From contig NZ_JAEQBW010000001.1 in the NCBI RefSeq assembly GCF_016679925.1, forward strand, positions 248,001 through 312,000: 64,000 nucleotides of DNA, written 5' to 3'. Within the stretch, counting starts at the first letter, position 1. Each line of letters begins with the position of its first letter. Below the pieces are notes generated by a model that saw nothing but the letters and a program-made list of their open reading frames with translations, was not told the DNA's origin and ran no database searches. This DNA is from Marivirga aurantiaca. Its GTDB lineage: Bacteria; Bacteroidota; Bacteroidia; Cytophagales; Cyclobacteriaceae. The translations under genes were made by a program, and so were the position numbers. This document shows, in pieces, positions 24,195-40,370 of this stretch.

Positions 24195-25154
24195 ATGACT
24201 GCTCAACCTAAGCTCTTTAGATTATTAAAAATCATCAGTTTGCTTTCTTCCAAACAACGCTACACTATACAGAAGTTGGCGGTAATGATGGAATTGTCAG
24301 AAAGAAGTATGTACCGCTATCTTGAATTATTAGAAGAATCCGGATTTGTCATTGACAAGGATTTTTATGGTAATTATTTCATGCACCAAAATCTGGAGGC
24401 TAAAATTAACCCTGTTTTTACTGCCGATGAACTGGCATTCATGCGACAACTGGCAAGTCTGAATAAACATCCTTTAATGGACAGCATGTTGCAGAAGCTA
24501 TATGTAAGTTCTGAACTACCTCCTGTGAAAGAATTGATTGTAAAAGCCAGGTTAAGTCAACTGGTTGAGAAACTCAAAGTAAGCATAGCTGAAAAAAAAC
24601 AGGTGGTAATTAAGCATTATCATTCTGCGGAAAGCGGCCGGATAGGCGACCGACTGATTGAGCCTTTGTCCGTAGAAAATGATTTTTTTACCATATTGGC
24701 CTTTGATGTAAATGCCCGGCAAACGAAGTTTTTTAAGTTGGAAAGAATGGGTGATGTGATCGTGTTGGATCAGGCGTGGAAGTTTGAAGAGGAGCATGAA
24801 AACCTGGATAGGGACTTTTTTGGGATGTCCGGCACAGCTTCTGTCTGGATAAAACTTGAATTGAGTTTGCGCGCCTATAATTTAATGAGGGAAGAATTCC
24901 CTGCCACCATCGATTATTTAATTAAGGAGGACGAGAGTTACTTCTTTTATGGCCCCATTAGAGGATACGAGGGTATTGGCCGATTTATTTTAGGGCTGCC
25001 AGGCGAAGTGCGCCACATTAATAATAAAGGATTGATTGACTACCTGAACAATAAAATGGAGGCTTTCTTACACCCGCGAGCCTTTCAAAATTTTGCAGCA
25101 TTGGGAAAGCAGAAAGTGGATTTGGCAAACCAAATGGAAGTAGTAGGAAAATAG
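24195..25154 (+). CDS. HTH-WYL transcriptional regulator next to cas genes
   Basis: The 319-residue protein has an N-terminal helix-turn-helix (RYTIQKLAVMMELSERSMYRYLELL), a WYL-like core at ~100-190 and a WCX-like C-terminus. WYL proteins bind nucleic-acid ligands and often regulate CRISPR-cas or defence genes. It stands directly upstream of the first cas6 on the same strand, separated by a 194-bp promoter region with a palindrome (25282-25296). It is a strong candidate for the regulator of this cas operon. Confidence 0.82.
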   Translation: MTAQPKLFRLLKIISLLSSKQRYTIQKLAVMMELSERSMYRYLELLEESGFVIDKDFYGNYFMHQNLEAKINPVFTADELAFMRQLASLNKHPLMDSMLQKLYVSSELPPVKELIVKARLSQLVEKLKVSIAEKKQVVIKHYHSAESGRIGDRLIEPLSVENDFFTILAFDVNARQTKFFKLERMGDVIVLDQAWKFEEEHENLDRDFFGMSGTASVWIKLELSLRAYNLMREEFPATIDYLIKEDESYFFYGPIRGYEGIGRFILGLPGEVRHINNKGLIDYLNNKMEAFLHPRAFQNFAALGKQKVDLANQMEVVGK

Positions 25155-25296: not shown

Positions 25297-25348
25297 AAAC
25301 AGGAATGTACCTTGGGCATTGAAAGAAAGAAAAACCATAAAATAATAT

Positions 25349-26137
25349 ATGATGAGGTTTAAAATTCATTTAGAGAGAATTAATGGAGATAAGTTCCTGC
25401 CGATCAATTATCAGTATGAATTGTCATCGGTGATTTATAAAATCATTCATACAGCTGACAGCGATTTTGCCCGCTTTTTGCATGATCAGGGATATATTAC
25501 CGGACAAAAAACCTTCAGACTTTTTACCTTTTCACATCTGGTATTAGATAAATCAAAAGTGATTCCCGAAGCTGGCAGACTAGAGCATGTGGGTAATAAA
25601 TCTTCATTTCAATTTAGCTGTTTGGTGGACAGGACCGCAGAAGAGTTCATCAAAGGCATTTTCATGAACCAGGAATTTACTTTGGGGGATAAGATTACTC
25701 AAGTAAGCTATACGGTTTCTCATATTGAAGCCCTGGAACCTCCGGTGTTTATGGAGAAGATGACTTACCGATGCCTATCGCCAATATTTATCAGAAACAA
25801 AAGGCCTGATGGCGGAGAGGATTATCTTCAACCAAAAGATGAAGATTACGCAAAGCTTGTGCTTTCAAATTTGGTTTCTAAAGCACAGGCGCTTGCTGTG
25901 GCAGGTACTTATGCAGACTTTTCTGAAGGTGAAACAGTTTTAAAATTGAATTCCATTGGCAAAATTTATAAAAAGGGTATTACCATTAAACAAAACACAC
26001 TGCAATCCTCTAAATTGATTGGCTATAGTTATGAATTTGAATTAACTGCTCCGGTAGAACTACAGGAAATTGGCTATTATGCGGGTTTTGGCAATTTAGG
26101 CAGTCAGGGATTTGGTTGTGTAGGGGTGAAAAACTGA
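25349..26137 (+). CDS. cas6: CRISPR endoribonuclease Cas6, first copy
   Basis: The 262-residue protein has two RAMP-like ferredoxin halves. The C-terminal glycine-rich loop is GYYAGFGNLGSQGFGCVGVK, the Cas6 signature, and the N-terminal half has the candidate catalytic histidine in IYKIIHTADSDFARF (His ~36). Cas6 cuts pre-crRNA within repeats, leaving an 8-nt handle (here ATTGAAAT). It differs greatly in sequence from the second Cas6 at 27125. Between the two lies a minus-strand insert. Confidence 0.92.
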   Translation: MMRFKIHLERINGDKFLPINYQYELSSVIYKIIHTADSDFARFLHDQGYITGQKTFRLFTFSHLVLDKSKVIPEAGRLEHVGNKSSFQFSCLVDRTAEEFIKGIFMNQEFTLGDKITQVSYTVSHIEALEPPVFMEKMTYRCLSPIFIRNKRPDGGEDYLQPKDEDYAKLVLSNLVSKAQALAVAGTYADFSEGETVLKLNSIGKIYKKGITIKQNTLQSSKLIGYSYEFELTAPVELQEIGYYAGFGNLGSQGFGCVGVKN

Positions 26138-26153
26138 TAGCTATGTTAAGCAA

Positions 26154-26339
26154 TTATTTTATATCGATGTGCTCACCATTTTTTGTTAAGCTTAGTTCTA
26201 CTTCTTTTGAAAGTTTACTTTTTAGTTTTTCAACTTCAGAAGCATATTTAGCATCAATACTTAATAACTTTTCTTTGCTAATATTATTATTAGGCAATTC
26301 TCTATCATCAAATATTTTTGGAGTGTTCCTTTCTTTCAT
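26154..26339 (-). CDS. 61-residue partner of the JAMM protein
   Basis: The short gene starts at ATG 26337-26339, inside the last 32 bp of the JAMM gene, so the two are translationally coupled. The protein is charged and helical (KLLSIDAKYASEVEKLKSKL). It ends 16 bp from the end of cas6, facing it. Size, coupling and helical makeup would suit an antitoxin or a binding partner. No family is recognised. Confidence 0.6.
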   Translation of the reverse strand: MKERNTPKIFDDRELPNNNISKEKLLSIDAKYASEVEKLKSKLSKEVELSLTKNGEHIDIK

Positions 26340-26838
26340 AGTCTATTTTGTAATAATCAAAAAAGAATATCCAAATATAGTGAAATATTATTGCTTCTTT
26401 ATCATTCACACCAATCTCAAATTGCGAAATCATTTTATCTACTACTTCATTAGCAATACTTTTAGATTTACTCAGCACAATATTAGTTGTTCTATCCTCA
26501 ATGTCAATTGGCCATATGCCAGGTCGTTTAATCGAATAACTAAAATCTTTAGTGATCACGTACATTTCTTTCACATTATGAAAAATTGCCATTCTAATAT
26601 CTTCAATAGAAAAGGTGTTGTTAGATGGGTGGTTATGGATCAATTGAGCGTCTTTAAACTCAAAAAGATATTGCGGAGGTATATTTATAAAATTCGATTC
26701 TCCAACAAATTTTCTGATTTGCCGACCGTCTTTCATTATATAAAGATGTTCGATAGGATGATATCGAAGTTTACTTATAGCTTCTTTAAGAGACTTTACT
26801 TTATCTCTTGGTACGGGAAAGTGATACTTTTCTTTCAT
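26308..26838 (-). CDS. JAMM/JAB-motif metalloprotein inside the cas operon
   Basis: The 176-residue protein carries a JAMM-type zinc site: AQLIHNHPSNNTFSIEDIR gives H68-N-H70-P, S77 and D80, with E30 of HPIEHLYIMKDG as the likely catalytic glutamate. This form of JAB domain is known from phage-related and toxin-associated proteins; others are deubiquitinase-like peptidases. It is transcribed against the cas genes. Only 20 bp separate its ATG from the T tract of the crRNA-like RNA, with no promoter of its own between, so its message probably comes by read-through from the promoter at 26966-26996. Peptidase activity and any toxic role are inferences. Confidence 0.8.
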   Translation of the reverse strand: MKEKYHFPVPRDKVKSLKEAISKLRYHPIEHLYIMKDGRQIRKFVGESNFINIPPQYLFEFKDAQLIHNHPSNNTFSIEDIRMAIFHNVKEMYVITKDFSYSIKRPGIWPIDIEDRTTNIVLSKSKSIANEVVDKMISQFEIGVNDKEAIIFHYIWIFFFDYYKIDYERKEHSKNI

Positions 26839-26858
26839 GAAATGCTCTGTATTGAAGT

Positions 26859-26888
26859 AAAAAAACCGGAGACTATAAAAATCTCCGG
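26859..26888 (-). terminator. Intrinsic terminator of the crRNA-like RNA
   Basis: On the minus strand CCGGAGA and TCTCCGG form a 7-bp stem over a 9-nt loop, followed by TTTTTTT (26865-26859). The JAMM gene starts 20 bp beyond. Confidence 0.85.
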
Positions 26889-26960
26889 GAAATCCATAAT
26901 GGTGCGATTAAGCTTCTTTTTAAGAATAAAGAGTTATTTTTCAATGCCGTCAATGGATTT
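26859..26960 (-). ncRNA. crRNA-like RNA (mini-CRISPR) aimed at its own promoter
   Basis: Read on the minus strand, the predicted ~100-nt RNA has a degenerate repeat at 26960-26938 ending in the handle ATTGAAAA (CRISPR handle: ATTGAAAT), then a 23-nt spacer-like part at 26937-26915. From 26912 down follows CTTAATCGCACCAT, identical to bases 3-16 of the array repeat; the next bases TATGGATTT keep the CCA-n3-TGG stem of the repeat and change only the loop. It ends at an intrinsic terminator. The spacer-like part begins ATAACTCTTTA and matches 27003-26981. This is the layout of CreA/CreR RNAs, which load Cascade for repression and not cleavage. Expression and loading are inferred. Confidence 0.82.
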
Positions 26961-26965
26961 CATAA

Positions 26966-26996
26966 CAAAGATATAATAAATTACTATAAGATTAAA
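26966..26996 (-). promoter_or_regulatory. Promoter of the crRNA-like RNA and JAMM genes
   Basis: On the minus strand TATCTTTG (26973-26966) matches TAnnTTTG exactly; TTTA (26996-26993) lies 19 bp upstream at the place of the TTTG -33 element. Start of transcription is expected near 26960. Confidence 0.7.
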
Positions 26997-27006
26997 GAGT
27001 TATTGG
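26981..27006 (-). promoter_or_regulatory. Protospacer-like target with CCA PAM
   Basis: Minus-strand bases 27006-27004 are CCA, a usual type I-B PAM. The next 23 bases match the spacer-like part of the RNA at positions 1-11, 13-17, 19 and 23. Mismatches at 12 and 18 fall on the every-sixth bases that Cascade flips out, and 20-22 also differ. The site covers the -33 element of the same promoter. Confidence 0.78.
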
Positions 27007-27124
27007 TATAGCTGATTTATTTATTAACTTGTAACCTTAATATAAACATGTGTAAAATAAATAACTCTATCAAAAAAACGGAAGGCTAGAAAACCATGCG
27101 GATTGAGGGAAAGAAAATAAGAAT

Positions 27125-27781
27125 ATGAGATTGATTTTAAAAATTTCGGCTAATAAAAGCGCAGTACCCTTTGACTACCAAAAATATCTGGTAGGAGCCT
27201 TTCATAAATGGCTTGGAAAGAATGAAGTACATGATGATGTTTCACTTTATTCATTGTCCTGGTTGCAGGGAGGTCAGAGGATTAAGGATGGATTAAATTT
27301 TAGAAATGGCGCAGAATGGGCGATTAGTACTTATGATGTGGGATTGCTTAAAAGGTTGATCCAAAACATTCAAGATGATCCGGAAATCAATTTTGGAATG
27401 AAAGTGGAAGGAGTAACTATTTGCCAGGAACCAAAATTTGAAGAAAAACACAGGTTTTTACTCTCCAGCCCAGTCTTTATTAAAAGACAAGAAGGAGAAA
27501 GAACAAAGTTTTATCTCTTTTCAGATAAAGAAAGTGGAGAGCTTATGACTTCTACTTTAAAGAATAAACTCAAAAAGGCAGGTCTTAATCAAGAAGGCTT
27601 AAAAGTATATTTTGATCCTAATTATCAGAACCCTAAAACAAAAATGATCACTTTTAATGGCATTGATTGTAGGGCAAGTATGTGCCCTGTCATTATAGAA
27701 GGAAGTCCGGAACAATTGGCATTTGCGTGGAATGTTGGAATTGGAAATTCAACGGGGATAGGATTTGGTGCTTTAAAATAG
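27125..27781 (+). CDS. cas6: CRISPR endoribonuclease Cas6, second copy
   Basis: The 218-residue protein ends with the Cas6/RAMP glycine-rich loop AWNVGIGNSTGIGFGALK and starts with a RAMP strand MRLILKISANKSAVPFDYQKYL. A candidate catalytic histidine is in LVGAFHKWLG (His ~28). It is shorter than, and little like, the first Cas6. One of the two may process array crRNA and the other serve a different role, such as the crRNA-like RNA. It begins the run toward cas5 and cas3. Confidence 0.88.
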   Translation: MRLILKISANKSAVPFDYQKYLVGAFHKWLGKNEVHDDVSLYSLSWLQGGQRIKDGLNFRNGAEWAISTYDVGLLKRLIQNIQDDPEINFGMKVEGVTICQEPKFEEKHRFLLSSPVFIKRQEGERTKFYLFSDKESGELMTSTLKNKLKKAGLNQEGLKVYFDPNYQNPKTKMITFNGIDCRASMCPVIIEGSPEQLAFAWNVGIGNSTGIGFGALK

Positions 27782-27791
27782 AAATTAACAG

Positions 27792-27820
27792 ACCCGTAAT
27801 GTTTTCAAAACCTTGCGGGT
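27792..27820. repeat. ACCCGCAAGGTTTT hairpin repeat, copy 1
   Basis: ACCCGTAATGTTTT pairs with AAAACCTTGCGGGT (two mismatches). The same element occurs at 33046, 34641 and 40409, all within the CRISPR locus. It lies between the second cas6 and cas5. Confidence 0.85.
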
Positions 27821-27836
27821 TTAAAACACAGATAAT

Positions 27837-28421
27837 ATGAACTATTATGTAGTTAAATATTCAGGGCCATTTGGTTTTATTAAACCATGGACGGCAGTAA
27901 GGGATAGTGAAACTTTCAGTCAGCAGTTTTTGACGCCCTCCATAGTAGAGGGTATTGAAAAGAAGTTGTTTCCTGAAACACTCGCGATTTCGGGTATTAC
28001 TAAAATTGCAGGGCATCGCATTTCTTATGATCAGGTATCCGGACAACAAGAAGTTATTCAAACCCGTGGTTGGAACTCTACAAAAAAAGGCAAGGAATTC
28101 CTTTTTGACCGTCCCAAGGCTATTTTAATTAGAGGAGTACTTCAAAACCCAATTCTTCACCTTGCATTTTTGAATAAAGAAGATGCAATAAATGCTGCAA
28201 AACAACATGTGTGCCTATGTCGAAATGAAGACTTGTTATTCCCTGAATTAGTTTCAGAGAGTACAAAAGAAGAGTTTGAAACAAATGATAAAAGATATGC
28301 CGGATTTGAGCTTGTATTTGAGAAAAATGAGAAATCTTTTTTAGTGGGTTATCATAGAGTAAGTAATGAACCTATGCATGGATGGATACGCGTAGTTGGA
28401 CAACCTGTAAATGCGTTATAA
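27837..28421 (+). CDS. cas5: Cas5-like Cascade subunit
   Basis: The 194-residue protein begins NYYVVKYSGPFGFIKPWTAV and continues with a QQFLTPSIVEGI segment, which parallels the first strand and glycine helix of Cas5 proteins (F-x-G-P-x-G-x-F ... P-x-P-S-x-x-x-G). Cas5 caps the 5' handle of crRNA in Cascade. Its stop codon abuts the cas3 ATG. Its place before cas3, not after cas7, is unusual for type I-B. The call rests on the N-terminal pattern and on every other core gene being accounted for. Confidence 0.72.
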   Translation: MNYYVVKYSGPFGFIKPWTAVRDSETFSQQFLTPSIVEGIEKKLFPETLAISGITKIAGHRISYDQVSGQQEVIQTRGWNSTKKGKEFLFDRPKAILIRGVLQNPILHLAFLNKEDAINAAKQHVCLCRNEDLLFPELVSESTKEEFETNDKRYAGFELVFEKNEKSFLVGYHRVSNEPMHGWIRVVGQPVNAL

Positions 28422-30569
28422 ATGAATAGACTACTAGCAAAATCAGCCCCTGAATGGACTTCACTAAAAAATCATTTGCTCCATGTTTCTTACGCAGCTA
28501 AGTCATTTGCTTCCTATCTGAACATGGATGAAGAATTAGCTTACAATGGTGCTATTCTTCACGATATAGGCAAGTCGCATACTGAATTTCAAAAAAGATT
28601 GACGTCTTCAAGCAGAAATTCGAAGGTATTGAGGCATGAAATAAGTTCTCTGCTATTTCTTTCTGTATTTCCAGTTGAGCAAAAATCTCAATTAATAGAA
28701 ATGGTTGCAGGGCATCATAAATCTATAAAGAATGATGCAGGTGATAAAGGATTGCTGGATTTGGAAGACGGCTATGATTATGAAGATTATCACATAGGTA
28801 AATGGAAAGAATGGAGTCCTGCTGCATTTGAACTTCTAAATGACTTAGGAATCAGTTGCGAGCCTTTTTCAGAAGATGTGGCAAGAGAAAACTTATCCAT
28901 TGCAGTAAATTATTGCCAGAAAAAATCTAAGGAAAGAGGCTATTCAGAATGGAGGGGTCTACTCATGGGCGCTGACCATTATGCATCAGCCTTGATTGAT
29001 GAAACACAAAATAAATTAGAAAAGGCTTTTAAAGTTCCTAATCTGACTTTCTTCAACCGAACGCATAAGCTATATCCTTTATCGTTAAAAGATACCAATT
29101 CTCCTAAAAAACACACTATTGTAGTTGCAAGTACCGGAGCGGGAAAAACAGACTTTCTGTTTAAAAGAACAAAAGGAAGAGTTTTTTACACACTTCCTTT
29201 TCAAGCTTCTATCAATGCAATGTTTAAGCGTCTTGCACAAGATTTAGAACCAACTAATCCTGATCTGGATATCCGTGTATTGCACTCGGCTTCAATGGTA
29301 GTTAAAAGGAAAGGAGCTGAGGAAGAAACTGCACTGCAATCACTTTTTGGTTCATCTATTAAAATTTTAACACCGCACCAGTTAGCTTCAATTGCCTTTG
29401 GAATGAGAGGGTTTGAAGCATTGATATTGGATTTAAAAGGCTGTGATATTATTCTGGATGAGATTCACACCTATACAGGTGTTTCACAGGCTATCGTATT
29501 AAAGTTGGTACAGATACTAAATCAACTGGATTGTGGCATCCATATCGGAACTGCCACTATGCCTACTGAATTATATGCCAAAATTTTGGAAGTGTTGGGG
29601 GATGATGTTTTAGAGATCAAGTTAAGTGATGAAGAGATGGATCAATTTGATCGACATGAAATTCATAAAATTAAATCATTCAATGATGCTACTGAACGAA
29701 TTGATCAGGCTATTGTAAAAAATGAAAAGACACTAATTGTATTTAATAGAGTAGCAAGAGCACAGGAAGCGTATTTGTCATTAAAAAATGAATATCCGGA
29801 TGTTCCTATTTTACTACTTCATAGTAGATTCAAACGTGGAGATCGCAATGAAAAGGAAAAAGTATTAATGGGGTTGGATGAGGAAGGAAAATCTCTTGAG
29901 GAATTCAATACCTCATCCAAAGCTTGTATAGTTGTGTCCACTCAAATTGTTGAAGTTAGTTTAGATATTAGCTTCGATTTAATGATTACTGAAACAGCAC
30001 CTATTGATGCACTTATTCAGAGGTTTGGCAGAGTAAACAGGAAAAGAACAGCCGCTACAATTGGTAAAACTAAGCCTGTTTATGTGATTCCGCCACCTGA
30101 GAATAAAAATGACGCTCTGCCTTACGATGTAGAGGTTTTAAAAAGATCATTTGAAATTTTGCCTGACAAACAAGTATTGAAGGAAAGGGAATTACAGACG
30201 AAAATCGATTATGTATTTCCTAGTATAGATTTTCTAAATATAGAAGAGCATGCTGTTTTTAAAGCAGATGGAAAGATTTCTATTGATCAGTTAACTCACA
30301 GAAGTAAATCAATACTTTTTGAATTGTTAGAAATTGATTCCGTTTCCTGCATTTGTGAAGGGGATTTAGATGAATATGAAAATTCCTATTTTGAGAGGAG
30401 GTTGGAATTAGAAATACCTATTAGATATTATGCTGTACGCAATTTGAATCAGGCACAAAAAGGGAATAAACCTTTTGTTATACCGGATAAAGCCTATGAG
30501 TACCATTCCGGTTTGGATGTGAGAAAGATTTCAGAGAATAATTTTGACGTAAACAATCAACTACTATGA
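28422..30569 (+). CDS. cas3: Cas3 helicase-nuclease
   Basis: The 715-residue protein joins an N-terminal HD nuclease (AILHDIGKSHTEF near residue 47, later VAGHHKS) to a superfamily 2 helicase with Walker A ASTGAGKTD near 240, DEIH near 345, SAT-like IGTATMP and the motif VI QRFGRVNRKR near 532. Cas3 is recruited by target-bound Cascade and degrades the displaced strand. It directly follows cas5 and overlaps cas8 by 4 bp (ATGA), so all three are one translation unit. Confidence 0.97.
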   Translation: MNRLLAKSAPEWTSLKNHLLHVSYAAKSFASYLNMDEELAYNGAILHDIGKSHTEFQKRLTSSSRNSKVLRHEISSLLFLSVFPVEQKSQLIEMVAGHHKSIKNDAGDKGLLDLEDGYDYEDYHIGKWKEWSPAAFELLNDLGISCEPFSEDVARENLSIAVNYCQKKSKERGYSEWRGLLMGADHYASALIDETQNKLEKAFKVPNLTFFNRTHKLYPLSLKDTNSPKKHTIVVASTGAGKTDFLFKRTKGRVFYTLPFQASINAMFKRLAQDLEPTNPDLDIRVLHSASMVVKRKGAEEETALQSLFGSSIKILTPHQLASIAFGMRGFEALILDLKGCDIILDEIHTYTGVSQAIVLKLVQILNQLDCGIHIGTATMPTELYAKILEVLGDDVLEIKLSDEEMDQFDRHEIHKIKSFNDATERIDQAIVKNEKTLIVFNRVARAQEAYLSLKNEYPDVPILLLHSRFKRGDRNEKEKVLMGLDEEGKSLEEFNTSSKACIVVSTQIVEVSLDISFDLMITETAPIDALIQRFGRVNRKRTAATIGKTKPVYVIPPPENKNDALPYDVEVLKRSFEILPDKQVLKERELQTKIDYVFPSIDFLNIEEHAVFKADGKISIDQLTHRSKSILFELLEIDSVSCICEGDLDEYENSYFERRLELEIPIRYYAVRNLNQAQKGNKPFVIPDKAYEYHSGLDVRKISENNFDVNNQLL

Positions 30570-31882
30570 TACCATCAGTAATTGGCAAGACCTTTTTGAA
30601 GACGTACAATGAGAAGTACAATAAACAATTTTCTCCAAAAGAATTCTTTGAGAAAGAATATTGGGAATTGTTCTATAACCATCCTAAATATCTCCAATGG
30701 GTAACAAACTCTCCTTTTGTTCAAATGAAGAAGGGACAAAAGCCTCATCTATTGACAGAAATTGACAGAAAGGAAAAATTGGAAAATTTATTTGAGAAGG
30801 CAGAGAATGAAATTCCTGATGCCAGCTTTGCTTTAGGATTTCCTGCGTCTGAATCCAAAGAATTTGCCAGCACATCAGGTTTGGTAAGTGAAGTGTTGAT
30901 TCCTGTGGATGAAGATGAAGTTTACCTATCATGGATTGGAAGCAGTTTGGGAATAGGTGTAGCAGGTGGATTTACCATCCTTTTTGATGACCCTGTCATT
31001 ACATTACAAACTTATGAAGGTTGGAAGGTTTATCGTAAGTATTTGAATGATCCTGTACTGGAAAAATTGAGAGGAAACCAGATTAATACATGGAATGGCC
31101 AATGGCTAACCTATTCACTCAACCCAGAGGATTATAGAGAAGATTTTGATTTTTCAACGCTTTATAATCACAAGATTTTTAAAGTGGATACATCCTTGAC
31201 GGAGGTAAATACAGTACAATGGTCTCGCCTATTTTTTAGTCTGTCACTCCAGTTTTCTCAAGAAGAGATGATGGGATATGTTTACGGGTTTGGACAAACC
31301 AATAAAACTATTGGCTTTATTCCTTTCCAATTCAAATCTGGAAATCAGATCAAAGATGTTTATAAGCAATTATTTGGTGGGATTTATTCCAACCCTAAAG
31401 ATTTTGAGAGCCTATTTGGTATGCACATCAAAAGAGCTTGTGAATTAGGTAGTATTGGATTGCAGGCATTAAGGCCCGATGGCCTTAAAAAATATATGAA
31501 GGAAGATAAAAATCTAACCTTTAAAAAAGAAGAAGACACAATAAATTATCAAGCATATAAAACCTGGTTAGTAGCTATGTTAACAAAAAACAAAGAAGAA
31601 ATCACAGATTATACTATGGATTTAGCTAAGATTATCCAAAAGTATAGAGCAGGCGGGACGAAATTGGATCGAAAAACCCTCATTGAAAAAGAACTATTTG
31701 CCTCTCCTTCCAAAAAGGGCTTTATAGAAGCACTTACGAAGATGATTAAAGATTTAGATGGTGGAGATCTCCTTAACATTAAACAGCTTAAAGATGAAGT
31801 ACATCTTATGACAAATGAAGAGTATGGATATTTCTGTACACTACTCAAATTTGACTATGCTTTTGTCGAACGACAAGCTTAA
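30566..31882 (+). CDS. cas8b: Cas8-like large subunit of Cascade
   Basis: The 438-residue protein has no motif I can name, but it sits between cas3 and cas7 where the large subunit belongs. Its ATG overlaps the cas3 stop. It is smaller than many Cas8b proteins, as in the Bacteroidota branch of I-B. The C-terminal third is helical, like the Cas8 C-terminal/small-subunit part. Cas8 reads the PAM and recruits Cas3. The name is from position. Confidence 0.75.
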   Translation: MIPSVIGKTFLKTYNEKYNKQFSPKEFFEKEYWELFYNHPKYLQWVTNSPFVQMKKGQKPHLLTEIDRKEKLENLFEKAENEIPDASFALGFPASESKEFASTSGLVSEVLIPVDEDEVYLSWIGSSLGIGVAGGFTILFDDPVITLQTYEGWKVYRKYLNDPVLEKLRGNQINTWNGQWLTYSLNPEDYREDFDFSTLYNHKIFKVDTSLTEVNTVQWSRLFFSLSLQFSQEEMMGYVYGFGQTNKTIGFIPFQFKSGNQIKDVYKQLFGGIYSNPKDFESLFGMHIKRACELGSIGLQALRPDGLKKYMKEDKNLTFKKEEDTINYQAYKTWLVAMLTKNKEEITDYTMDLAKIIQKYRAGGTKLDRKTLIEKELFASPSKKGFIEALTKMIKDLDGGDLLNIKQLKDEVHLMTNEEYGYFCTLLKFDYAFVERQA

Positions 31883-31943: not shown

Positions 31944-33023
31944 ATGAACACAATATATATAAGAACATTAAAAAGAGCGGAGCATACAGTTTTCAATGTA
32001 TCAGATGGACAAAAATATTATTATGATGCTCAATTTAATAAAAGAATACCTTTTTCCAGTGGTCAGCAAGTTAAAAGATCTTTAGTTGATACACTTTGTG
32101 AAGCCATTAACCAGACTCCATCTCCCACTACCTTTCTATTTGATGTTAACAAGCAGAAAGAGCTTACAGAAGGAGAAGTATATGGGACATGTGATCCTAC
32201 ATACGCTGATCAATTGTTCGGTGGGTGGATGAAGGCATCTAAAAAAGATAAATCTGGATTGGTCAAACAAGAAAGAACTTTAAAAAGAAGGAGTCCTTTA
32301 TCAATTTCAGCGATGAGGGCGTTACATCCACTTTTAGCAGGATTAGATAGTGAAAATGCTTCTTTTGATAGAAGTGATCGCCCGAATAATAAGGTAATAG
32401 TTCGAGACGAGAAAAATAATGAACTTAATGAAGAAGAAATAGTAACTCTACTGGAAGGAAAAGACAGAAGTCTTAGCCGAAAATGGATACCAAATAACAG
32501 CAGAGCAACAGGATTATTTGTATTTGATATTGCAATTGATTTAAGACGTCTTTTTACCGTCAGCACCAATCAGTTAGAGCCTGAAATGTCCGATGAGACT
32601 ATTGAAAAGCTAAAAGCAGAGGGTTGGATTGAATCGGAAAATGTGTTTGGTAAATGTCTGGTAGCACCGAAGGATTTGCGTGAAAAGTGGATTCCTGGTT
32701 TAGCTAAAGCGATCATAAACTGGAGAATTACCTCTAATCAATCGCGTACTTTTAGTTTGATGGATACTCTAGCTCTTTCCATAAGCGATAATGCTAATTT
32801 AATTGCAGGAAGTATACGTTCTAAACTTTCGGAAGAGGATTCAAGGAAAGCCGACCCTATTGTTGATGAAAGCATCAATGGGGTAGACACTTTTGTGACT
32901 CTTCAGGCTGGTGCATATATTCATACTAAAAGTGAGAAAGTTGATGCATTGGAGTCGGCAGAAAAAACGCTTGTAGCGCTAATGAAAGCATTCGACTACG
33001 AAAATCAACTAGAAAGAGAATGA
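31944..33023 (+). CDS. cas7: Cas7 backbone subunit of Cascade
   Basis: The 359-residue protein starts with a RAMP-like strand (NTIYIRTLKRAEHTVFNV). It has PFSSGQQVKRSLVD, where DevR/Csh2-type Cas7 proteins carry their crRNA-contacting loop, and the later RATGLFVFDIAIDLRRLF strand. Cas7 polymerises along the crRNA and makes the every-sixth-base kink. It follows cas8 by 61 bp and is followed by a hairpin repeat, then cas4. Confidence 0.88.
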   Translation: MNTIYIRTLKRAEHTVFNVSDGQKYYYDAQFNKRIPFSSGQQVKRSLVDTLCEAINQTPSPTTFLFDVNKQKELTEGEVYGTCDPTYADQLFGGWMKASKKDKSGLVKQERTLKRRSPLSISAMRALHPLLAGLDSENASFDRSDRPNNKVIVRDEKNNELNEEEIVTLLEGKDRSLSRKWIPNNSRATGLFVFDIAIDLRRLFTVSTNQLEPEMSDETIEKLKAEGWIESENVFGKCLVAPKDLREKWIPGLAKAIINWRITSNQSRTFSLMDTLALSISDNANLIAGSIRSKLSEEDSRKADPIVDESINGVDTFVTLQAGAYIHTKSEKVDALESAEKTLVALMKAFDYENQLERE

Positions 33024-33045
33024 AATTCATATGATTACCCCAAAA

Positions 33046-33074
33046 ACCCGCAAGGTTCCCAAAACCTTGCGGGT
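33046..33074. repeat. ACCCGCAAGGTTTT hairpin repeat, copy 2
   Basis: ACCCGCAAGGTT and AACCTTGCGGGT form a perfect 12-bp stem. It separates the effector genes (cas5-cas3-cas8-cas7) from the adaptation genes (cas4-cas1-cas2) and may end or lessen transcription. Confidence 0.9.
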
Positions 33075-33087
33075 TTAAAAGAAAAAA

Positions 33088-34628: not shown

Positions 34629-34640
34629 AGCAGTTTGTAA

Positions 34641-34674
34641 ACCCGCAAGGTTTCCAAAACCTTGCGGGTTTTTT
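34641..34674 (+). terminator. ACCCGCAAGGTTTT hairpin, copy 3, with T tract
   Basis: ACCCGCAAGGTTT pairs with AAACCTTGCGGGT except at one loop-side base, followed by TTTTTT. It is the same element as copies 1, 2 and 4, and here it has the full form of an intrinsic terminator, between cas1 and cas2. Confidence 0.75.
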
Positions 34675-35170: not shown

Positions 35171-38100
35171 CTCTTAATCGCACCATACTGGAATTGAAAT
35201 AAAAAGGCGATTTAGTGACTATTGAATTAGCCTACCTCTTAATCGCACCATACTGGAATTGAAATTTGTTAAGATTAATCAGATAGGGAAGTAATGTGTC
35301 CTCTTAATCGCACCATACTGGAATTGAAATGGAGAAAAGTTACACTGGGCCGAAGAATAGTTTAGCTCTTAATCGCACCATACTGGAATTGAAATAAAAA
35401 TAAACCTTCCTCACCTAACGACTTAAGGCCTCTCTTAATCGCACCATACTGGAATTGAAATGACATTATAAAGGCATGTTTCGTGTCCGGCAAGATTCTC
35501 TTAATCGCACCATACTGGAATTGAAATTGCCTAAAGCAATATATACCACTACTGAAATAATCCTCTTAATCGCACCATACTGGAATTGAAATATGAGGCA
35601 ATTCAGGAAGCAAGAAGAGATTACGCATCTCTTAATCGCACCATACTGGAATTGAAATTTAAGCAGGACATTAATAACCTGAAGACGGCTTTTTCTCTTA
35701 ATCGCACCATACTGGAATTGAAATAGAGTACGCAGAAGATCAGGTAGATCACTTAATTACTCTTAATCGCACCATACTGGAATTGAAATGATGGACGTAT
35801 TGAGGATATAGATTTAAATGTAGACTCTTAATCGCACCATACTGGAATTGAAATCGGCAGGCGTTAAGATTGCTAAGATTGCAAACAACTCTTAATCGCA
35901 CCATACTGGAATTGAAATCTGACACATTAACAAAGATCTTTGTATGGATGGTACTCTTAATCGCACCATACTGGAATTGAAATCACAACGATCACTACAA
36001 CGATTACAAACACTGTACTCTTAATCGCACCATACTGGAATTGAAATGATGTAACACCTTCATATTTTTGAATTAAAAACACTCTCTTAATCGCACCATA
36101 CTGGAATTGAAATCTATTTGTTTCAATTGATCTTCATTGAATTTGTATTCTCTTAATCGCACCATACTGGAATTGAAATGTCTGTCCCGGAAAGCGGAGG
36201 GGGTGAAATGGACGCTCTTAATCGCACCATACTGGAATTGAAATGATGCTGTATTTGTGTCAGAATTAACCTCTCGCGTCTCTTAATCGCACCATACTGG
36301 AATTGAAATATGAGTAAAATGTTAAAAGATTTCGAGCAGTCTTTCTCTTAATCGCACCATACTGGAATTGAAATTAAGTAAATTCAAATGATTTATCTTG
36401 TGATCTTAACTCTTAATCGCACCATACTGGAATTGAAATAGGTTTAACATTCGAGTAAGCTTTTCTTCTTTCGTCTCTTAATCGCACCATACTGGAATTG
36501 AAATTTATTTAAGTGTTTGCCTCGGGTGAGGTTGTGAAACTCTTAATCGCACCATACTGGAATTGAAATGAGTGATGAGGAAGCAATTAAAATTGGATAT
36601 GAAACTCTTAATCGCACCATACTGGAATTGAAATTTAAATGGTTATAACTGTCAATTGGCTGGTTGGTTGCTCTTAATCGCACCATACTGGAATTGAAAT
36701 CGGTACAATAAAATTACATTGTCCGAAATACTGGACTCTTAATCGCACCATACTGGAATTGAAATAAACAGGCGCCCAGTTTTCAATCATCTTACTAGGC
36801 CCTCTTAATCGCACCATACTGGAATTGAAATTAATTTTGGAAACACTTCATTTGATCGATTGATAAACTCTTAATCGCACCATACTGGAATTGAAATTTG
36901 ATTTAAAATCAAGAAGTTTTATCGTAGAGGTTCTCTTAATCGCACCATACTGGAATTGAAATTTTGCTTATTGACGAATGCAGAAATACAATCATCTTCT
37001 CTTAATCGCACCATACTGGAATTGAAATGAAACAAACCTTTCGTGGTTAGGGGTGTGGATTTTGCTCTTAATCGCACCATACTGGAATTGAAATCAACCT
37101 GATTAAATTTATTCCTATGCTCAAAGTAGCCTCTTAATCGCACCATACTGGAATTGAAATGGGGTATCATCAATAAACATTTTAGATGAAAATAAACTCT
37201 TAATCGCACCATACTGGAATTGAAATGTGTAGGTCAAAATCAAAGAAATGTAGGTAATTATGCTCTTAATCGCACCATACTGGAATTGAAATTACGCAAT
37301 TGCATCAAATGTTTCTAATTGCTTATCGCTCTTAATCGCACCATACTGGAATTGAAATTAATATACTACAAATAAAAGCCTTGCATACATCAACCTCTTA
37401 ATCGCACCATACTGGAATTGAAATAGAAAAAAGAAGTTAAAGGGAATACTTTCGACAATGCTCTTAATCGCACCATACTGGAATTGAAATATAGTTATAA
37501 GACAACCTATTTCCGGTAACTTCTGCTCTTAATCGCACCATACTGGAATTGAAATTATGGATTTACACCTTAAAGGTATTTGGAATAAGTCTCTTAATCG
37601 CACCATACTGGAATTGAAATTCGGCTAAAGAGTGAGGTAAATCATCTTCAAGATCCTCTTAATCGCACCATACTGGAATTGAAATACCCCTATTTACTTG
37701 CTCTTCTACGCTTAGACTATTCTCTTAATCGCACCATACTGGAATTGAAATTGGTTTAACATTCGAGTAAGCTTTTCTTCTTTCGTTCTCTTAATCGCAC
37801 CATACTGGAATTGAAATAGGTATGGTTTTAATTTTAGCTACGGTGATCCGGAACTCTTAATCGCACCATACTGGAATTGAAATCAGCAGACACATACGGA
37901 ATTAAAACGAACAAAGACTCTCTTAATCGCACCATACTGGAATTGAAATGGGAATATAGAGATAATGAGGTTTTTTTTATTGAAACTCTTAATCGCACCA
38001 TACTGGAATTGAAATTTGTTTTTTGAATGCTGTCTTTTAGATTCCGTAAACTCTTAATCGCACCATACTGGAATTGAAATATGTAGCCAACCAAACAGGC

Positions 38101-40370
38101 CGTACTCCTTCGCAACTCTTAATCGCACCATACTGGAATTGAAATATTTGTAAGGCTTCAATTCTGCAATTTTGGCCTTACTCTTAATCGCACCATACTG
38201 GAATTGAAATAAGTTACCAGTAAGGCTATTTTTAATATGAATTACACTCTTAATCGCACCATACTGGAATTGAAATCTGCCTTCCTGGTGTTAATATCGT
38301 AACTGCTATCCGCTCTTAATCGCACCATACTGGAATTGAAATAAGCTTTTGTTTGTCTCGTTAATTTGCTTAGGGGCACTCTTAATCGCACCATACTGGA
38401 ATTGAAATGCGTGAGTACTTTAACAACCCGGTGATTGAAGGTAACTCTTAATCGCACCATACTGGAATTGAAATCTGATTTGACAGGGTAATACAAGTGC
38501 ATTGATAAGGCTCTTAATCGCACCATACTGGAATTGAAATATGCCTGTCAGGTCTACCACAACAATAAAGCCGGTACTCTTAATCGCACCATACTGGAAT
38601 TGAAATTGGTTTGAAATGGGCGGTTCGTCCGGTTTTCGGTACTCTTAATCGCACCATACTGGAATTGAAATCTCTCAGTCTCGTATACTCTTACGATAGG
38701 TGTGGTACTCTTAATCGCACCATACTGGAATTGAAATCTGCTGAGAGGAAAGAACCGGCAGGCCTTCCTAATCTCTTAATCGCACCATACTGGAATTGAA
38801 ATACTTAGAAGCGCGCATGGCTGAATCATTTGACGTAGCTCTTAATCGCACCATACTGGAATTGAAATTGTATAAGAAAAGAAGTAAACCCGGTCTTCCA
38901 CCCACTCTTAATCGCACCATACTGGAATTGAAATGTGTTTTGGAAAAAACAGACCCTGTAATTATGGACGCTCTTAATCGCACCATACTGGAATTGAAAT
39001 AATCGTACACCCTTTGTTTCTTTTCTTCCAGGGAACTCTTAATCGCACCATACTGGAATTGAAATAAGACAATGCTTTTTCAAAGTTTGCAAAAACTCAT
39101 TCTCTTAATCGCACCATACTGGAATTGAAATATTTTGTATAAGTGATGGAAAGCATGATCTCTGTTCTCTTAATCGCACCATACTGGAATTGAAATTCGT
39201 TTCATCTATTTCAAGGGGAATGCACAGGATACTCTTAATCGCACCATACTGGAATTGAAATTTAACGATGAGGGCAGCGGTGTCAATCAAAGTGGTCTCT
39301 TAATCGCACCATACTGGAATTGAAATCTGAAAATCATCAACTCTACTTTCAGTAGTATTATCTCTTAATCGCACCATACTGGAATTGAAATATATAACCT
39401 GCACCAGTAATTAAGATACTTCCCACTCTTAATCGCACCATACTGGAATTGAAATATGACTTTACGGGATATTCCTATGGGGGCCACTTTCCTCTTAATC
39501 GCACCATACTGGAATTGAAATGTGACGAATATCCAGTAGCAGCGGAATGTCAAGCCACTCTTAATCGCACCATACTGGAATTGAAATTCTTTAAATCCTT
39601 TATCATAAGCATTATCCACATCCTCTTAATCGCACCATACTGGAATTGAAATTTATTATTCCAGAGTTAATAGATTTATCCTCATTTCTCTTAATCGCAC
39701 CATACTGGAATTGAAATCTTGATGGAACAACTACAGCTAAATTTGGTACTTCTCTTAATCGCACCATACTGGAATTGAAATCACGGTGGTAAGGCTTCAT
39801 AGCCAATGAATCTACCCTCTTAATCGCACCATACTGGAATTGAAATAGATTTGGAAAAGTCAAGATGTACCCTAAAAAGGTACTCTTAATCGCACCATAC
39901 TGGAATTGAAATGTGGTTTACGCCTACCGAAACATATTAGCAGCTGACTCTTAATCGCACCATACTGGAATTGAAATTTAAGGACTTTAAAAGGGATGAA
40001 AACGGGAATATCCTCTTAATCGCACCATACTGGAATTGAAATTACATTCCACTCATCAGGATTAAAATACCTGAAAAACTCTTAATCGCACCATACTGGA
40101 ATTGAAATAAGGAAGCAGAAAAACTTAAGCCAATACTCAATAACTCTTAATCGCACCATACTGGAATTGAAATCAATCTGGCCATTGCGCACAAGGAAAT
40201 ATTGCACAACTCTTAATCGCACCATACTGGAATTGAAATTGAGCAAGGTGAGAAGGAGATATAATGACTATCAATCTCTTAATCGCACCATACTGGAATT
40301 GAAATCTAACTAAAAGAAGGCCCTGCAGTTGCGGGGCTTTCTCTTAATCGCACCATACTGGAATTGAATC
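35171..40370 (+). CRISPR. CRISPR array, 80 repeats and 79 spacers
   Basis: The 30-bp repeat starts CTCTTAATCGCACCATACTG and ends GAATTGAAAT. I counted 80 starts from 35171 to 40341, 64-66 bp apart, so spacers are 34-36 bp. All repeats look identical except the last, which ends GAATTGAATC, marking the trailer end. The repeat has a weak CCA-n3-TGG stem, and Cas6 cleavage should leave ATTGAAAT as handle. Spacers 20 (36440-36474) and 40 (37752-37787) share 34 bases. The size and uniform repeats point to an active system. Confidence 0.99.

Follow-up and report, generated by a model that had tools for sequence, protein, structure and literature searches.

In the cas locus of Marivirga aurantiaca, we found a short RNA resembling the RNAs of clustered regularly interspaced short palindromic repeats (CRISPR) arrays, which very probably acts as a CreA-type guard: judging from its sequence, it would work with Cascade to repress its own promoter, silencing a protein effector encoded behind it. 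The CRISPR RNA (crRNA)-like element lies on the minus strand of a 64,000-nucleotide (nt) stretch of contig NZ_JAEQBW010000001.1 (positions 248,001 to 312,000; hereafter the window), between the two copies of cas6 within a complete cas locus of type I-B. With 12 further type I-B-like cas loci showing the same arrangement, the total comes to 13, and most of these loci differ in their guides. Five observations carry this reading: the layout of the element, the identity between guide and nearby target in all 13 loci, a spacing of mismatches like that of Cascade, the order of RNA followed by cargo genes in 11 loci, and the presence of three unrelated cargo pairs. Where genomes and loci need to be told apart, we use working labels beginning with G and L.

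In the window, a putative promoter with a TAnnTTTG box, the Bacteroidota-type -7 consensus, is followed by a crRNA 5' handle, a guide, a repeat-derived 3' part and an intrinsic terminator, and the cargo gene pair starts 27 nt past the terminator stem (Table 1). The guide is identical to its target at bases 1-11, 13-17 and 19 and mismatched at bases 12 and 18. The target is flanked by CCA, resembling a protospacer adjacent motif (PAM), while the copy within the guide follows AAA rather than a PAM. As in the degenerate repeats of CreA RNAs, the handle end and the TTAAT-type half of the resident array repeat are kept (the resident array was compared in the window, Anditalea, Xanthocytophaga and G643). 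A preliminary description of this DNA had proposed most of these parts, and its promoter box, handle, CCA-flanked target, match pattern and terminator were all recovered, as was the identity of CTTAATCGCACCAT with bases 3-16 of the array repeat CTCTTAATCGCACCATACTGGAATTGAAAT (79 exact array copies and one variant). Some details changed: the guide-like part between the handle and the 3' repeat half is 25 nt long rather than 23, the upstream degenerate repeat retains the handle end and little else, and the CCA-n3-TGG stem is present in the 3' repeat half but is not the sole hairpin, as the predicted fold pairs GAAATCCAT with ATGGATTTC, the last 9 nt of the 3' part (26897-26889).

To compare loci, the start of each guide was set by the handle alone, and a site was accepted as a target if it matched at least 9 of 10 seed bases, was flanked by a [CT]C PAM and lay within 1 kb. 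Exactly one site passes this rule in each of the 13 loci; with shuffled guides, between 12 and 72 of the 2000 trials run for a locus pass it. Seeds match their own target at 9.62 of 10 bases, compared with 3.44 of 10 for the targets of other loci. The preliminary description had proposed looking in related genomes for the repeat-guide-repeat layout with covarying guide and target, naming beforehand a drift between the two as the outcome that would speak against it. The layout was found, and the outcome was the opposite of drift: guide-target identity is kept in all 13 loci while the sequences change.

The positions of the mismatches carry further information. All 13 loci match at bases 1-5, 7 and 10, 12 loci at each of bases 8 and 9, and 10 at base 11, whereas only three match at base 6 and three at base 12; bases 13-17 match in 10, 11, 10, 11 and 8 loci, bases 18 and 19 in 7 each, and base 20 in 4. 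Bases 6, 12 and 13-20 lie outside the selection rule. Bases 13-17 are matched in 50 of 65 cases, compared with 6 of 26 for bases 6 and 12 (Fisher p=3e-6), or 47 of 60 compared with 6 of 24 when G887 is left out (12 loci, p=9e-6); the 13 loci are related to differing degrees and so are not fully independent in these tests, and the window and G500 share a guide. The guides of these two differ within the first 16 bases only at 6 and 12 and their cargos are unrelated, G500 having the window's guide seed and target with another cargo. Unmatched bases 6 and 12 together with matched bases 13-17 are the apparent footprint of Cascade reading the guide; in haloarchaeal CreA, bases 6 and 12 are unpaired, according to PMC8501985.

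The same data bear on the idea that the duplicated AATAACTCT words are a repeated operator, bound by a protein such as a WYL-type regulator, with a coincidental likeness to CRISPR. In the window, the guide word recurs a third time in partial form (ATAACTCTATC, 27060-27075, plus strand, between the target and the second cas6, without a CC PAM), and a WYL-type regulator gene is nearby (24195-25154, adjoining the first cas6). We nevertheless regard an operator as highly improbable: the word differs between loci, one copy follows the 8-nt handle while the other follows a PAM-like triplet, and the mismatches cluster at bases 6 and 12, which a repeated operator would not be expected to spare so exactly.

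The RNA is the leader of the cargo pair in 11 of the 13 loci. Of these 11 leader loci, seven have an exact TAnnTTTG box at a distance of 21-31 nt upstream of the handle, and the other four have a box one base off. In 8 of the 11 leaders, the distance from the start of the target to the handle is 48-60 nt, so that the target covers the expected -33 region. A rule-based scan found a terminator in 8 of 10 leaders scanned, with the end of the stem 24-31 nt before the cargo start codon. This gap leaves no room for a second promoter, so in terminator-bearing loci the cargo would be transcribed by read-through from the RNA promoter or from further upstream. Xanthocytophaga has no RNA upstream of its JAMM gene, and an RNA with a handle and a repeat half lies behind the gene pair instead; when the CC-flanked sites of the JAMM promoter were compared with the 20-kb locus, the one non-self 10/10 match was that RNA. 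This is the classical order of toxin followed by CreA.

Beyond the guide, many of the RNAs share a long-range closing stem. The stretch upstream of the handle pairs with the one that follows the 3' repeat half over 6-9 bp in 9 of 13 loci, and the letters vary by locus (GAAATCCAT/ATGGATTTC, GAAATCT/AGATTTC, CTTCCCAGG/CCTGGGAAG, AGAATCC/GGATTCT, CTTCAAC/GTTGAAG in G887, and others). No closing stem was found in G704, G765 or G367, and the 8-bp pairing of Xanthocytophaga is elsewhere. Across the 10 leader loci compared, own arms pair over 6.8 bp and exchanged arms over 5.0 bp (permutation p 0.0001). Some exchanged arms do equally well, with 6 of 132 cross-locus arm pairs reaching at least 7 bp. 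Single-locus tests are modest, with shuffled arms reaching the stem length, per 1000 trials, 0 times in the window, 17 in Anditalea, 10 in Indibacter, 1 in Emticicia, 19 in G643, 28 in G571, 3 in G500, 82 in G029 and 32 in G887. Folding energies of four RNAs were mildly below those of shuffles (z -0.9 to -2.6), the window being unremarkable (z -0.92), and an Rfam search over 25300-28000 gave no match up to E=1. The RNA may be described, in most loci, as a split repeat, with the handle half at the 5' end, the other half at the 3' end and a locus-specific stem joining them, in which case one rearranged repeat would be enough instead of two. For haloarchaeal CreA repeats, PMC9458426 reports no conserved hairpin.

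The kept stem and the better pairing of each locus's own arms, along with the terminators, would also suit a post-transcriptional leader, in which Cas6 binding or cutting the repeat halves and the stem sets read-through or the stability of the messenger RNA, and the guide match is secondary. This leaves the covariation of guide and target and the unmatched bases 6 and 12 unexplained, and we consider it improbable.

The cargo genes fall into three types. Among the 11 leader loci, the cargo is a JAMM-fold protein in six, a 91-95-amino acid protein in four (G571, G500, G029 and G765, with a partner of about 55-60 amino acids) and a DUF6934 protein in one, each accompanied by a small partner; the two remaining loci are the JAMM locus of Xanthocytophaga, with its RNA behind the cargo, and G367, which has no cargo. 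The DUF6934 protein (PF22028, E 8e-48) of G887 (L061, G887:C1:4607028-4607068) has a 60-amino acid partner and a TCA at the target, and its module sits between a cas8-like gene and cas6. In G571 (L044) and G029 (L052), an FDDR-type partner remains downstream with the JAMM gene absent, a leftover behind another cargo, as if the cargo had been exchanged. The structure model of the window's cargo 1 is confident (predicted local distance difference test, pLDDT, 93.3), and its top four PDB matches are JAMM/MPN proteins, placing it in the MPN fold: three are Pyrococcus furiosus JAMM1 and the other is AF2198, at Foldseek E-values that are weak (0.015-0.056, none at or below 0.001). The HNHP...S..D motif is invariant, with E30, H68, H70, S77 and D80 unchanged across six JAMM sequences; we take these residues to be the JAMM metal-binding HxH...D with its upstream glutamate. 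Unlike JAMM1 and AF2198, cargo 1 has no sequence-family match, extra C-terminal helices and a small partner gene. By analogy with known guarded genes, the likeliest role of the cargo is that of an effector in growth arrest or defence. A BrnT-like identity of the 91-amino acid protein, guessed by eye, gained no support from family searches, and those searches found no KilA-N or known toxin family among the cargo proteins. The JAMM and FDDR-type pair also occurs on its own with no cas genes in view, at L037 and L039 (genome G777, which has more than one copy of the stand-alone pair) and at L015, apparently identical with the L037 locus.

Under the guard reading, a single TAnnTTTG promoter would make the RNA, with most transcripts ending at the terminator and a few continuing through it to the JAMM gene and the partner gene. 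Cas6 would free or trim the RNA, and Cas5, Cas7 and Cas8 would load it. RNA and Cascade would then bind the CCA-flanked target over the -33 region of the RNA's own promoter, the short match (seed and a few further bases, skipping 6, 12 and 18) leading to binding without cutting, so the promoter would silence itself in proportion to working Cascade. Loss or depletion of Cascade, or its block by a phage inhibitor, would open the promoter and let the cargo rise. With somewhat less confidence than for the guard itself, but still more likely than not, the module may be a sensor of Cascade integrity with exchangeable cargo, in which a leader guide, mostly in a split-repeat RNA, silences its own promoter and unrelated effector pairs are swapped in behind it; the finding of a third cargo type, DUF6934, raised our confidence in this slightly. 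Such a module would represent CreA-style guarding of protein effectors, including a JAMM-fold protein, in Bacteroidota, with cargo exchanged behind a kept RNA. It allows a direct test of whether Cascade serves cells as a sensor of how well their own CRISPR system works, offers naturally occurring pairs of guide and target whose bases 6 and 12 have been left unconstrained by evolution, and provides a search rule (handle, short gap, repeat half and a matched PAM-flanked site) for hidden effectors in cas loci. The carriers of the module are a group of environmental bacteria.

Several observations weigh against the guard reading. The first concern the match in the window by itself. The window contains 7 sites with at least 9 of 10 seed bases, one being the guide; the site at 27003 has CCA, one at 40140 (inside the array, 9/10) has TCA, and the rest have neither. 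The CCA-flanked seed word (CCAATAACNCTTTA) occurs once in the 5.0-Mb genome, and so does a reversed control pattern, which means that a lone genome-wide site is not rare by itself; shuffled window guides gave a match within 1 kb in 63 of 2000 trials. The evidential weight therefore lies in the 13 loci taken together rather than in the window alone. The array spacers had no match in phage records and hence supply no independent PAM, and the TC PAM was admitted into the rule after TCA had been seen in G029 and G765 (the TCA of G887 came afterwards). The missing independent basis for the PAM and the degenerate repeats would fit a dead mini-array remnant with a chance self-match, but we give this explanation very little chance, as the guide-target match, the -7 box and the order of RNA and cargo are kept in 11 leader loci from several families.

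Other points concern what is being regulated. One-off -7 boxes face the cas gene in 9 of 10 loci examined; since one-off boxes face both ways, only exact boxes indicate direction. In Emticicia, G704 and G887, the target starts 99-101 nt before the handle, near the cas start codon, and at this distance a direct block of the -33 region is not obvious. The terminator scan found none in Emticicia and G571, and none was seen by eye in G887. G367, which lacks cargo, has an RNA that targets its own cas promoter: it is a CreR-like RNA with two fuller repeats just upstream of cas6-cas5 (L090 / L077, G367:C63:1613-1658), from another class of the phylum, and its seed matches a CCA-flanked site at the cas6-cas5 promoter with mismatches at 6 and 12. 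These loci, and the general position of the target between the divergent RNA and cas genes, would suit CreR-type autoregulation, in which RNA and Cascade tune the cas operon by roadblock or promoter block and the gene pair is a passenger. We think this rather unlikely because exact TAnnTTTG boxes face the cas gene in 0 of 11 leader loci and the RNA in 7 of 11, the spacing to the cargo is fixed where a terminator is present, and the Xanthocytophaga target is at the JAMM promoter with the RNA behind the pair. A cas promoter target without cargo characterizes G367 alone and not the window.

The cargo proteins add to this side of the balance. The JAMM and 91-95-amino acid proteins have no significant family in Pfam, NCBIfam, PADLOC or PHROGs (best E 0.0093), DUF6934 is a family of unknown function, and a toxic or defensive role is suggested by the regulation and by analogy with CreT and CreP. 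The preliminary description had Cascade shutting the promoter of the RNA and the JAMM pair. Covariation in 13 loci, the RNA-then-cargo order in 11 of 13 and the promoter boxes support this; the three distant targets and the cas promoter target of G367 qualify it, and we infer, from these patterns, transcription, loading into Cascade, repression and a harmful or defensive action of the cargo.

CreTA, CreR and CrePA are already established, and the arrangement described here belongs to the CreA-guard kind. In haloarchaea, CreA represses its own creTA promoter through a seed match at bases 1-5 and 7-11 (PMC8501985). With CreTA, known from type I-B haloarchaea and others and described in PMC8501985 and PMC9458426, our modules share a crRNA-like RNA with degenerate repeats in a cas locus, a seed at 1-5 and 7-11 that leaves out bases 6 and 12, a PAM beside the target, and targeting of the operon's own promoter. 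Seed pairing with a PAM-flanked site at the guarded promoter is found here too, with the qualification noted for Emticicia, G704 and G887. CreTA guards a toxic small RNA, whereas a conserved protein-coding pair would be guarded here; in 11 of 13 loci the RNA heads the operon, in most cases separated from the cargo by a terminator; many matches extend to base 16-17; and most of the RNAs keep little of the first repeat beyond its handle end and form the long-range closing stem. Like CrePA, in which a crRNA-like RNA silences a protein gene through Cascade, the modules would guard a protein, but CreP, as a review describes it (PMC12737573), is typically a KilA-N protein acting on FtsZ, while the cargo here is a JAMM-fold, 91-95-amino acid or DUF6934 protein with a small partner in each case. 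The likeness to CreR, a crRNA-like RNA with a target at a cas-locus promoter (PMC12737573), is direct for G367; unlike CreR, 12 of the 13 loci have a gene pair joined either to the RNA or to the targeted promoter. Open-access literature searches (JAMM with CreA, CRISPR or toxin-antitoxin; CreTA in Bacteroidota; degenerate mini-arrays) gave no account of the arrangement among the matches listed, as judged by titles and the starts of abstracts, and we therefore take it as a newly described form of CreA guarding.

The loci were collected by protein and pattern searches. Searches with the JAMM protein gave matches in 4 of 98, 5 of 395, 5 of 295 and 11 of 390 genomes, the four samples overlapping and the counts including the Marivirga genome itself, and some of these matches are weak or lie outside cas loci. 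Relatives in cas loci come from Anditalea andensis, Indibacter alkaliphilus, Emticicia agri, Xanthocytophaga flavus and two genomes of the window's family. A crRNA-like RNA and a matched PAM-flanked site were present in 7 of 7 JAMM loci found to be cas-linked, window included, a count that excludes L017-L020 (weak matches), L033 and L036; no cas genes were found within the stretch read at L029-L032, L034, L035 and L037-L040. A DNA search of 98 genomes with the RNA region alone returned its own sequence and one 26-nt match, nothing useful. A cargo-blind pattern, ATTGAAA-N12..33-TTAATYGYACC, which passes over arrays with 34-36-nt spacers, was found at 28 places in 24 of 341 genomes of the order (reversed control, 4 of 341) and at 18 places in 17 of 296 genomes of the phylum (reversed control, 4 of 296), or 45 distinct places, as both searches share the window. 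The self-target rule ([CT]C-flanked, within 1 kb) was passed by 8 of the 45, and 7 of these are modules (the window, L044, L047, L052, L061, L064 and L077); the eighth, L048 (9/10, CCC, 978 nt off, at -978), was left out of the module count. The remaining 37 places, judged from their flanks, were short-spacer arrays or had no self-target. At L042 and L056, 10/10 matches required both the opposite strand and a shift in the guide start, and L070 had a 9/10 match without a PAM. In L062 (G730:C8, about 1501, reverse strand), one spacer flanked by two nearly complete repeats directly follows cas7/cas5-like genes and has no self-target by the rule; it may be an array end or another guard RNA.

Table 1. 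Features of the guard RNA, its target and the surrounding cas locus in window coordinates
Feature	Coordinates	Strand	Remarks
PAM-like CCA 5' of target	27004..27006	-	CCA in 9, TCA in 3 and CCG in 1 of the 13 loci
Target (protospacer), 20 bp	26984..27003	-	covers the expected -33 region of the RNA promoter
-7 box TATCTTTG of the putative RNA/cargo promoter	26966..26973	-	
5' arm GAAATCCAT of long-range closing stem	26953..26961	-	
crRNA 5' handle ATTGAAAA	26938..26945	-	
Guide, 25 nt	26913..26937	-	
Repeat-derived 3' part, CTTAATCGCACC + ATTATGGATTTC	26889..26912	-	repeat half CTTAATCGCACCATTATGGATTTC
Intrinsic terminator between RNA and cargo	26859..26888	-	stem 26888-26866 and T run
Cargo 1, JAMM-fold protein, 176 amino acids	26308..26838	-	HNHP...S..D motif
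Cargo 2, partner, 61 amino acids	26154..26339	-	FDDR.LP motif; overlaps cargo 1
cas6, first copy	25349..26137	+	
cas6, second copy	27125..27781	+	divergent from the RNA
cas5b	27837..28421	+	
cas3	28422..30569	+	HD and helicase
cas8b	30566..31882	+	
cas7b	31944..33023	+	
CRISPR array	35171..40370	+	80 repeats of 30 nt, 79 spacers of 34-36 nt

Cas8b and Cas7b are of type I-B in the window and in the three other loci tested. The Cas8b proteins beside the same RNA module match three different PADLOC models (L087-L089 and the window), and the PAM-like bases differ, being TCA in both loci of one Cas8b model (G029 and G765) and CCA in the others tested. A gene similar in appearance to the window's WYL-type regulator gene is also found beside cas6 in G765 (L089, 11000-11917). 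Finally, 33-nt near-palindromic intergenic repeats (AAACCCGCAAGGTT..CCTTGCGGGTTT) lie between cas genes of the window at 27790-27822, 33044-33076 and 34639-34671.
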